From Actinomycetota bacterium (GTDB lineage: Bacteria > Actinomycetota > Acidimicrobiia > Acidimicrobiales > Ilumatobacteraceae): 54,888 nucleotides of DNA. Location of the stretch: contig JAQCJO010000007.1 in assembly GCA_027592925.1 (NCBI GenBank), positions 1 through 54,888 of the forward strand, written 5' to 3'. The notes below the pieces were generated by a model. It saw only the letters and a program-made list of their open reading frames with translations. It was not told where the DNA came from and did no database searches. Shown piece after piece: positions 28,943 through 34,825 of this stretch; position 1 is the first letter of the stretch, and each line of letters starts with the position of its first letter. A program made the translations under genes and the position numbers.

Positions 28943-28963
28943 GCTGCAGAGTTACTCTGCAGC
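28943..28963. terminator. Convergent-gene hairpin with a stop codon in its loop
   Basis: GCTGCAGAG-TTA-CTCTGCAGC is a perfect 9-bp stem with a three-base loop between the convergent trkA and OB-fold genes. Read on the minus strand the loop is TAA, the stop codon of the OB-fold gene. There is no U-run on either side, so it would be an I-shaped bidirectional terminator, a type reported in actinobacteria. Termination is inferred from position and symmetry. Confidence 0.55.
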
Positions 28964-29317
28964 GTGCGGCAATAGTGTGTATCCGGGGTTAAGAAAAACC
29001 ATACTGTTGTGTTCTCGATAAGCGACACCTTCAACTGCGATGCATCCACCGTGTTCGATGCCAGCGATGTGGCGACGACCACTGAAAATAACAGTGACCT
29101 GACCTGTCCCATCGTTGATCACAATTTCCATTGATGGGATACCAGACCTTGGTTTCATGGTCATGCGCTTCACTTCACCGCACACCTTGACCTTGGTGCG
29201 TACAACAACTTCTCCGAGCGGTGTCAGATTGAGGTCGATGAATTTGTCGACGAGACGTTCGGCGTCCAACTCTCTGATGCCTTTGTTGGCCGCCTTCAAC
29301 ATATTTTTCAGACCCAT
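28952..29317 (-). CDS. OB-fold nucleic acid-binding protein
   Basis: A 121-residue OB-fold protein like Rv2694c, which also lies next to the TrkA pair in mycobacteria. After a short helical N terminus, VVVRTKVKVCGEVKRMTM begins the barrel, and EIVINDGTGQVTVIFSGRRHIAGIEHGG resembles the RecG/aminoacyl-tRNA synthetase anticodon OB motif. It presumably binds nucleic acid; its role is unknown. The ATG overlaps the stop of the upstream thioredoxin-like gene (TGATG) and AGGGGG lies six bases upstream, so the two are translationally coupled. Confidence 0.78.
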   Translation of the reverse strand: MGLKNMLKAANKGIRELDAERLVDKFIDLNLTPLGEVVVRTKVKVCGEVKRMTMKPRSGIPSMEIVINDGTGQVTVIFSGRRHIAGIEHGGCIAVEGVAYREHNSMVFLNPGYTLLPHAAE

Positions 29318-29835
29318 CAGGATCCCCCTAATTTATTGAGCATCGCCGTCAAGGTTACTTCGTCCATTGCACCCACATTTGTTTCGGATGTTCCGTCTTG
29401 TCGGATAAACACCCAAGCTGGTTGATAAGGCACTTCAAACTGCGCAAAAATTAGACCATCATTGTCTTTGATGTTTGCAAATGTGAGTTGGTGCTTGGAA
29501 ATAAAATCTTGCATCGATTGATCTGAGCCATTCCAGGCCACACCAATGATGTGTACTTTGCCTGCAAGTTGTTTGTTTGCCGCCTCGACCGAGGGTGCTT
29601 CATAGTTGCACGTGGCTCAACCAGGCGCCCAGAACCACAATGCAACAGGAGACTTTTGTAATTCGGATTGCAAATTGATTTCGCCACCGCCAACAAAGGT
29701 CGCATTGAAATCAGTGGTTGATGTTGATTGTGATTGACTCACCGAATCAGTTGTCTGTGTGGATGTATCGGCTCCACATGAAACCGAAGCAATGGCAAAA
29801 GCTCCTACGAAAAGTGCTGTGCTCAATGTACGCAT
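29317..29835 (-). CDS. Candidate selenoprotein: DsbF/TlpA-like thioredoxin with a UxxC motif
   Basis: One 173-codon frame with a single internal UGA at 29617-29619. Translated through UGA it reads FWAPG-U-ATCNYEAP: the UGA (residue 73) falls exactly on the first cysteine of the thioredoxin CxxC, with Cys76 as the second. The later VPYQPAWVF holds the cis-proline (139), and the downstream part resembles secreted mycobacterial DsbF/Mpt53. The N terminus is a signal peptide with a possible lipobox (ASVSC, Cys20). A GGUC-loop hairpin 26 bases after the UGA may be a SECIS. The 3' end is coupled to the OB-fold gene, which argues for full-length translation. A point-mutated Cys gene is the alternative. 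Confidence 0.65.
29578..29616 (-). promoter_or_regulatory. Possible bacterial SECIS element
   Basis: Immediately after the in-frame UGA on the minus strand, CCTC-GGTC-GAGG (29583-29594) forms a 4-bp stem with the apical loop GGUC, extended by a 2x2 internal loop and two GC pairs. The loop begins 26 bases from the UGA, inside the spacing range of bacterial SECIS elements (roughly 16-37), and has guanines at its first positions as SelB recognition generally requires. The stem is short, so this is only suggestive. Confidence 0.45.
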
Positions 29836-29889: not shown

Positions 29890-30318
29890 ATGAGTACTCG
29901 TAAATTAATTTTGTGGGCGCTGATATGTGGCGTAGTGATTCTGATTGCGGGCACTGCCAAGTTGTTTCAAACGTCACAAAAACCAGTTGAAGTGCAGCTG
30001 CTTGCCTTGGGCGACTCGGTGACGCTTGGCGATATGACCGTGAGTGTGACGGCATTGCGTGACACTGCAGATCGAACATTGGTGGACGTGACGATGGTGG
30101 GGGTTGCAGAGGCTCAGGCAATGGAAGGATGGAAGATGCTTGCAGCGGGCGAAGTGTCTGACCCGGTGATGCTGCCAGTTGGTGCAGGCACCGAATGCAC
30201 GCTCACAAAACTTGCCGAAACGCTTACGTGTACCGTTGCATTCCCTGTGTCTGAAGGCACGCGCACCGTTGCCTATATTCGTGCAGGTGAGCAACGACAA
30301 TGGGCAACAGCGCCCTGA
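29890..30318 (+). CDS. Hypothetical membrane-anchored extracytoplasmic protein
   Basis: A 142-residue protein I do not recognise. One N-terminal transmembrane segment (LILWALICGVVILIAGTAKL, about 6-25) anchors a beta-rich domain in which ALGDSVTLGDMTVSVTAL, ADRTLVDVTMVGV and TRTVAYIRAG look like strands of an immunoglobulin-like or DUF4352-like fold. Two cysteines (about residues 105 and 114) could form a disulfide outside the cell. It is divergent from the DsbF-like gene, which makes a redox link possible but unproven. Confidence 0.6.
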   Translation: MSTRKLILWALICGVVILIAGTAKLFQTSQKPVEVQLLALGDSVTLGDMTVSVTALRDTADRTLVDVTMVGVAEAQAMEGWKMLAAGEVSDPVMLPVGAGTECTLTKLAETLTCTVAFPVSEGTRTVAYIRAGEQRQWATAP

Positions 30319-33151: not shown

Positions 33152-34825
33152 ATGAGTAACTCATCGATAACGCTTCATAGCAGGTGGCTCGGTCGTGTGC
33201 CATATCGCGAAGCCCTCGCATTGCAATCTGGATTGTTCGAACAGGGCGTAGATCAACACTTGTTGTTGCTTGAGCATCCACATGTTTTTACTTACGGGCA
33301 CACCGCCGACTTGGCAAATAATTTGCGCTGCGAGCCAGTGACGGTCGGTGCAGAGTTGGTGCAGGTGCAACGCGGTGGCGACATCACCTATCACGGGCCA
33401 GGTCAGTTGGTTGGCTACCCGATATTGAGTTTGCAACCAAAGCATGGCACTGATGGCCCTGCTGATACTCGCTCCTATATATATGACGTTGAGCAATTGA
33501 TCATTGACACACTGACCCAACTTGGCGTTCACACTGCCGGGCGAATGGGTGAGTTTCCCGGCGTGTGGCTAGATCCAAATACTGATGAGGCTCGAAAGAT
33601 TTGTGCGATCGGTGTGCGGGTGGGCAGTGGGTCAACGGATCGCCGCACGATGCACGGATTTGCACTCAATGTCTCGACCGACATGACATTTATGCGCGAG
33701 CACATCGTGCCGTGCGGAATTGCCGACTATGCGGTTACGTCCTTGTTGGAAGAGGGCTTTGACGTGTCGATGAACGATGTTGTTGACATCGTTGTGCGAT
33801 TGGCTCAATTGAGATGGGGTTCGCAACACAGCACGCGAGCTGATGTGGCATGGAAGCACAACCCGCAAGATCTCTCCGCATTTTCGAGAGGCGAAGGCGC
33901 AGGAGAACCAGTGCGCATGATCAAGCGACTCGAACAAGCGGGCGTTACGGACGGCTTAAGCATTTCGGTGCGTAAGCCAGAGTGGATTCGTCCACACGTG
34001 CAACACACCGATGAAGTGTTGAAAACAAAGCGCACACTTCGCGATCTCAATTTGGTGACTGTCTGTGAACAAGCAGGCTGCCCAAACTTGAGTGAGTGCT
34101 GGAACGACGGCACTGCAACATTTATGGTGCTGGGCGAGCGGTGCACGAGGGCGTGTGGGTTTTGTTTGATTGACACGCAAAAACCTCTGCAGCCCGATAC
34201 CGACGAACCGCGCCGAGTGGCCGAAGCAGTGCAGCGAATGGGTCTTGAGTTTGCCGTGCTCACCATGGTGGCTCGAGATGATTTGATCGATGGCGGAATG
34301 CAACATGTGGTTGACACTGTTCGCGCAATTCGAGCGATGAATGTGTCTGCAAAAGTAGAGACATTGATTTCTGATGTCAAAGGCACCGATGCGCTCGACA
34401 TTCTGATTGCCGAGCGACCCGACGTCTTTAATCACAACATTGAAACAGTTGCCAGATTGCAGCGCGCAGTGCGACCATCGGCTGGGTATGCGCGTAGCCT
34501 TTCGGTGCTGGCACGAGGTCGTGCTGCTGGTCTTACGACAAAGTCGGGAATGATTGTGGGCATGGGTGAGACGCGCCAAGAAGTAGAGGCAACCCTGATA
34601 GATCTTGCAAGTGTTGGCGTGCAAATTGTCACCATTGGGCAGTATTTGCGACCTACAACCAATCATCTTCCTATTGCTCGCTTTGTAGAGCCCGAAGAGT
34701 TTGATCATTACAAGGCTTTTGGCGAGAGTCTTGGTATGCAACATGTGCAGTCAAGCCCGCTCACTCGCTCGAGTTATCATGCCAAACACGCACATGGGCA
34801 GTCGCAACTCGTACTCCATGCATAG
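33152..34825 (+). CDS. lipB-lipA: Fused octanoyltransferase-lipoyl synthase (LipB-LipA)
   Basis: One uninterrupted 557-residue frame joins two enzymes. Residues 1 to about 235 are LipB, with RGGDITYHGPGQLVGYP (74-90), Lys149 in RKICAIGVRV and the catalytic Cys188 in VPCGI. Residues about 255-557 are LipA, with the auxiliary cluster cysteines 305, 310 and 316, the radical-SAM cysteines 331, 335 and 338 (CTRACGFC) and the C-terminal RSSYHA serine ligand. LipB moves octanoyl from ACP to the target lysine and LipA adds two sulfurs. The genes are usually separate neighbours. It directly follows its substrate, the E2. Confidence 0.92.
   Translation: MSNSSITLHSRWLGRVPYREALALQSGLFEQGVDQHLLLLEHPHVFTYGHTADLANNLRCEPVTVGAELVQVQRGGDITYHGPGQLVGYPILSLQPKHGTDGPADTRSYIYDVEQLIIDTLTQLGVHTAGRMGEFPGVWLDPNTDEARKICAIGVRVGSGSTDRRTMHGFALNVSTDMTFMREHIVPCGIADYAVTSLLEEGFDVSMNDVVDIVVRLAQLRWGSQHSTRADVAWKHNPQDLSAFSRGEGAGEPVRMIKRLEQAGVTDGLSISVRKPEWIRPHVQHTDEVLKTKRTLRDLNLVTVCEQAGCPNLSECWNDGTATFMVLGERCTRACGFCLIDTQKPLQPDTDEPRRVAEAVQRMGLEFAVLTMVARDDLIDGGMQHVVDTVRAIRAMNVSAKVETLISDVKGTDALDILIAERPDVFNHNIETVARLQRAVRPSAGYARSLSVLARGRAAGLTTKSGMIVGMGETRQEVEATLIDLASVGVQIVTIGQYLRPTTNHLPIARFVEPEEFDHYKAFGESLGMQHVQSSPLTRSSYHAKHAHGQSQLVLHA

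Follow-up and report, generated by a model that had tools for sequence, protein, structure and literature searches.

The window, a stretch of 54,888 nucleotides that constitutes one contig (C14) of a 1.66 Mb, 98.5% complete assembly from the Ilumatobacteraceae, encodes a thioredoxin-like protein whose reading frame is split by a UGA codon at the active site. This codon was originally predicted to specify selenocysteine (Sec), though no strand was given for the gene; it lies on the minus strand. The features of the locus are as follows.

28952 to 29317, minus strand: downstream OB-fold gene, whose start overlaps the selenoprotein stop (TGATG); a syntenic marker in the genus.
29317 to 29835, minus strand: coding sequence of a predicted Sec-containing DsbE/DsbF-like thioredoxin (172 aa; Pfam AhpC-TSA, E = 2.8e-12; MPT53, E = 3.1e-25).
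29419 to 29421, minus strand: Pro139, within VPYQPAW and presumably the cis-proline that faces the active site (conserved at 90% or more; PWQPA is its counterpart in 1lu4).
29583 to 29594, minus strand: putative SECIS hairpin CCUC[GGUC]GAGG, with the loop starting 26 nt after the UGA.
29608 to 29610, minus strand: Cys76, the second (resolving) residue of UxxC, invariant in the protein alignment.
29617 to 29619, minus strand: UGA for predicted selenocysteine 73, which opens the UxxC redox motif.
29776 to 29835, minus strand: signal peptide ending in Cys20 (ASVSC, followed by G), a likely lipoprotein attachment site on the basis of Cys20 conservation.
29890 to 30318, plus strand: divergent gene (MSTRKL...) on the other flank, which adjoins the OB-fold gene in most genus genomes without the selenoprotein.

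The thioredoxin gene starts with ATG at 29835, ends with a TGA stop at 29319-29317 and comprises 172 codons plus the stop. Codon 73 (TGA, 29619-29617), in the context FWAPG-U-ATC-N, is the sole interruption of the frame and aligns with the first redox Cys of MPT53/DsbE and DsbF, confirming that a single in-frame UGA splits the frame at this residue. The VPYQPAW region and the coupling of the stop to the start of the next gene, both reported previously, are present, the latter as the TGATG overlap. With UGA read as U, the translation is MRTLSTALFVGAFAIASVSCGAD...SPVALWFWAPG-U-ATCNYEAPSVEAANKQ...VPYQPAWVFIRQDG...LGGS (172 aa). ORF calling with table 11, which is standard, truncates such genes at the UGA, as happens in this window.

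Three Pfam families match the 172-residue protein, namely AhpC-TSA (2.8e-12), Redoxin and Thioredoxin. The PF00578 score of 47.1 bits, against a cut-off of 26, together with the UxxC motif, places the protein in the Prx-like oxidoreductase family. Its closest solved homologues are the Mycobacterium tuberculosis proteins DsbE (MPT53, Rv2878c; 1lu4, E = 3.1e-25) and DsbF (3ios, 2.7e-18), with which the active site and cis-Pro region align; these two are described as aiding oxidative folding in vitro (PMC3853704). MPT53 and DsbF carry a CxxC motif with Trp before the first Cys, whereas the protein described here has Sec in first position, preceded by Gly (FWAPG-U); as its motif is UxxC rather than CxxC, it is termed DsbE/DsbF-like and is neither DsbE nor DsbF. 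There is also a resemblance to the ResA/StoA/TlpA family, with ResA (NF002854, E = 1.6e-13) the best NCBIfam profile. Orthology to ResA or StoA is ruled out by the score of 50.9 bits against 170, far under every curated cut-off; no NCBIfam model reached its cut-off and no selenoprotein model in that collection fits. All 16 aligned homologues retain Cys20, the last residue of the signal peptide, which suggests that the product is a lipoprotein, lipidation being predicted from the motif. The Pfam matches, the solved homologues and the Cys20 alignment thus uphold the earlier description of an exported or lipid-anchored protein of DsbF/TlpA type.

All of the Sec machinery sought (selA, selB, selD and tRNA-Sec) was found in the genome. 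The gene for tRNA-Sec lies at C78:18782 (64.2 bits, cut-off 47) and is called tRNA-SeC(tca) by ARAGORN. The same contig carries selA (C78:33637-34770, 396.6 bits) adjoining selB (C78:31921-33606, 302 bits), and selD is encoded on C79 (317 bits); SelA, SelB and SelD are all open frames. The genome encodes a second selenoprotein, formate dehydrogenase alpha (fdhA; L226, G000:C59:10704-12572), whose frame is interrupted once by TGA, at the usual Sec position (CNRT-U-HAPSVVGL). This fdhA would likewise be cut short by ordinary ORF calling.

Downstream of codon 73, the message contains a hairpin of bacterial SECIS type that fits the bSECIS rules and shows covariation, in agreement with what Sec insertion would lead one to expect. 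Bacterial SECIS elements are delimited by a loop of 3-9 nt with G in its first two positions, a stem of 4-16 bp, a spacing of 16-37 nt and a minimum free energy of at most -7.5 (PMC13188914). The hairpin falls within each of these limits, with a loop of 4 nt starting GG, a stem of 4 bp (the shortest that the bSECIS model allows), a spacing of 26 nt and an energy of -11.4 kcal/mol for the 45-nt element. It is nearly invariant in 70 distinct sequences from hosts that range from 46 to 72% GC. The hairpin Val codon is GTC in 70/70 sequences and the Ser codon TCG in 67/67, whereas elsewhere in these genes GTC accounts for 29% of Val codons and TCG for 29% of Ser codons. Third-position entropy is 0 at the hairpin Ser-Val codons and exceeds 1.1 bits at most others not fixed as Cys or Glu; freezing of these synonymous sites is not explicable by protein conservation alone. 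Every stem cell in the alignment of 40 distinct sequences is paired, and five cells show compensatory changes. Two of the four stem pairs vary on both sides, as in CUUC[GGUC]GAAG (L050, L074) and CUGC[GGUC]GCAG (L093), and the covariation score was reached by none of 500 shuffles. Free folding gave values no better than shuffled sequences (z = -0.19 for 58 nt and +1.39 for 101 nt), a measure that is blunt for a 4-bp hairpin.

The fdhA message of the same genome has a SECIS element, GUGGUC[GGUCU]GGCCAC, about 18 nt after its UGA. Although FdhA is an unrelated protein and the fdhA stem measures 6-7 bp against 4 bp in the thioredoxin gene, the two messages have the same GGUC loop core and are therefore presumably served by the same SelB. 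A SECIS model (R1) run across the genome retrieved the thioredoxin gene alone (4.3e-18; next 0.18) and missed fdhA, whose stem differs, so the genome may hold further selenoproteins. As a compact element with a 4-bp stem, the GGUC hairpin can also serve as a reference for how SECIS elements are recognized in the phylum.

Homologues with an in-frame TGA occur in 96 of the 151 family genomes searched, as counted from the search table. In the extracted sequences, where the column itself was verified, TGA occupies the first position of UxxC throughout the homologue group, save in one Cys copy. Six other genomes of the genus, all separate assemblies, have TGA at the same codon. In other families of the Acidimicrobiia, UGA forms occur in six and Cys forms in four; the column at residue 73 is thus filled by UGA or Cys across homologues, the comparison that had been proposed for it. 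A scan of genome contigs in which the UGA was back-translated as a Cys codon returned Cys homologues. In a tree of 122 proteins, built by a quick method, 72 UGA forms and one Cys form grouped together (SH-aLRT 99). This Cys exception, in G016, lies in tandem with a Sec copy but has no hairpin; more generally, the SECIS-like hairpin accompanies UGA forms and is missing from Cys forms. The tandem locus itself (L072, G016:C154:60332-61922), where a Cys and a Sec version of one thioredoxin lie side by side, provides a Sec/Cys comparison pair. Viral contigs searched for a relative yielded none, and the plasmids searched held only distant thioredoxins of less than 60% identity.

Distribution of the gene follows that of the Sec trait. 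Across the family, 79 genomes have both the UGA gene and tRNA-Sec, 17 the gene only, 25 the tRNA only and 30 neither (p = 4e-6, a value that is indicative only, as the genomes are related). Most of the 17 genomes (of 96 with the gene) that lack a tRNA-Sec match are incomplete MAGs. The 25 genomes with tRNA-Sec that gave no good match to the UGA gene (e.g. G007, G011 and G042) should have other selenoproteins. Within the genus, selA is present in seven of the eight genomes with the gene and in none of the 15 without it (p = 3.3e-5). In seven genomes the UGA gene precedes the OB-fold gene, and in every one of them exactly 276 nt separate the hairpin core from the OB-fold start that follows; the eighth genome with the gene is G148. 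One genus member that carries the gene (G031, 89% complete) has neither tRNA-Sec nor selA detected. At the gene-less loci examined, the OB-fold gene stands beside the MSTRKL gene and/or the dihydrolipoamide dehydrogenase gene that the window also carries, with no thioredoxin between them: in genus genomes without the gene, the whole gene has been lost from an otherwise intact locus, and Sec has not been swapped for Cys. The genus therefore constitutes a natural experiment in which the gene and selA are both there or both gone at one locus. Both this contrast and the genome with adjacent Sec and Cys copies allow the contribution of Sec to an extracytoplasmic thioredoxin to be tested.

Taken together, these convergent comparative data indicate that codon 73 almost certainly encodes Sec. 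The proposed Sec insertion is supported by the machinery, the SECIS element, the conserved UGA, the co-presence of selA and purifying selection. SelA and SelD would make Sec on the tRNA-Sec of the genome, and SelB carrying Sec-tRNA(Sec) would bind the GGUC-loop hairpin after the UGA, so that Sec enters at position 73 in place of termination. The product would be exported and probably lipidated at Cys20, adopting a DsbE/DsbF-like (TlpA/ResA-like) fold outside the cytoplasmic membrane. There, Sec73 may act as the attacking, low-pKa nucleophile and Cys76 as the resolving residue, and a mixed selenenylsulfide would mediate electron exchange with disulfides or oxidized groups of exported proteins. 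On general chemical grounds, Sec would lower the pKa and speed exchange. Both this topology and the redox role are inferred from homology; the protein may act as an oxidase, a reductase or a peroxidase, with electrons flowing in either direction.

A possible but less likely variant of this model is that Sec is inserted but serves mainly a thiol peroxidase or repair reductase rather than a general disulfide exchanger. Peroxide reduction is a frequent task of Sec, AhpC-TSA is the highest-scoring Pfam family, and Prx-like selenoproteins, as far as the sources consulted describe them, are mostly known from bioinformatics. The active site nevertheless has a UxxC motif of thioredoxin type with a QP cis-Pro region, and not the TxxU of Sec peroxiredoxins, which speaks against this variant. 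It is far less probable that a tRNA, reassigned or acting as a suppressor, decodes the UGA as a standard amino acid (Trp or Cys). Reassignment of UGA has occurred in other bacteria and would, as read-through, likewise preserve the frame; yet this gene and many homologues end on UGA as their ordinary stop codon, the distribution of the UGA gene follows that of selA and tRNA-Sec, the hairpin accompanies UGA and not Cys forms, and the tRNA with a tca anticodon is called as tRNA-SeC. Least credible of all is a nonsense mutation or sequencing error in a former Cys gene, a change that lies one step from TGC or TGT and that one genome alone would not distinguish from Sec coding: this pseudogene reading is already refuted for the family by the TGA shared with six more genomes of the genus and with almost every family homologue extracted, the frozen synonymous sites of the hairpin, the full Sec machinery and a low dN/dS downstream of the UGA.

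The dN/dS values among seven genus genomes are 0.09 for the 28 codons before the UGA and 0.16 for the 99 codons after it, the latter showing that the part beyond the UGA is selected as protein. Retention of the TGA in six separate assemblies and in the extracted family homologues implies that it is neither a chance stop nor a sequencing error. The original prediction of Sec is supported by every computable check that it suggested, and the absence of Sec machinery that would have spoken against it is not seen in this genome. The gene of the window thus belongs to a lineage-wide selenoprotein family, rather than being an isolated candidate, in a widespread class of environmental actinobacteria.

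Selenoproteins of this kind (UxxC Prx-like/Trx-like) have long been known, as had been stated for bacterial UxxC thioredoxin-like proteins, and Sec is no great surprise in them. Those listed in the sources consulted include UxxC/UxxU Prx-like thiol:disulfide oxidoreductases (PF00578) and several marine-metagenome Trx-like groups (PMC13188914, PMC9312934, PMC1088965, PMC2398784), and Actinobacteria were already recorded as a selenoprotein-rich phylum in 2006 (PMC1794560). Compared at the level of family descriptions, Prx-like selenoproteins (e.g. WP_010940744.1) and the GOS groups Prx-like 1 and Trx-like 1 share with the present protein the PF00578 best match, the UxxC motif, a SECIS-dependent UGA and a thiol-redox site (PMC13188914, PMC2398784). 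The named Prx-like carriers in the sources consulted are mainly deltaproteobacteria or unassigned marine reads, whereas the protein described here is an actinobacterial lipoprotein of DsbE/DsbF type. A literature search retrieved no publication on this Acidimicrobiia lipoprotein subfamily and none that joins selenocysteine with Ilumatobacteraceae, which is weak evidence, as most subscription journals fall outside the search.

Further Sec-containing paralogues are predicted in the lineage. A second group of UGA thioredoxins (L088, L094-L097 and L099-L103), with the motif FWAPHUPxCRREAPDVEQF, carries a longer SECIS-like hairpin, UCGAGC[AGUUC]GCUCGA, of which one copy is compensated (UUGAGC[AGUUU]GCUCAA). 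Its loop begins 34 nt after the UGA, compared with 26 nt in the gene of the window, so hairpin position differs among paralogues. Another sequence, L098 (G112:C184:41274-42105), has two in-frame TGAs in a UxxU motif (WFWAPW-U-PF-U-RREAP), followed by the hairpin CCAC[GGUC]GUGG, and is a candidate diselenide thioredoxin in Ilumatobacteraceae. On balance, these proteins probably represent an undescribed, Acidimicrobiia-wide subfamily of lipid-anchored DsbE/DsbF-type selenoproteins, with paralogues whose hairpin loop lies at 26 or 34 nt, one UxxU double-Sec form and whole-gene loss accompanying loss of the Sec machinery.

Two other observations concern further genes. The OB-fold gene of G139 (L218, G139:C52:14905-15267), a genome without selA, contains an in-frame TGA, which is probably an assembly matter, a misplaced end or a broken gene. 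Elsewhere in the window, a single open frame of 557 aa (33152-34825, plus strand) combines an octanoyltransferase domain of LipB type with a radical-SAM, lipoyl-synthase-like domain, an apparent LipB-LipA fusion.
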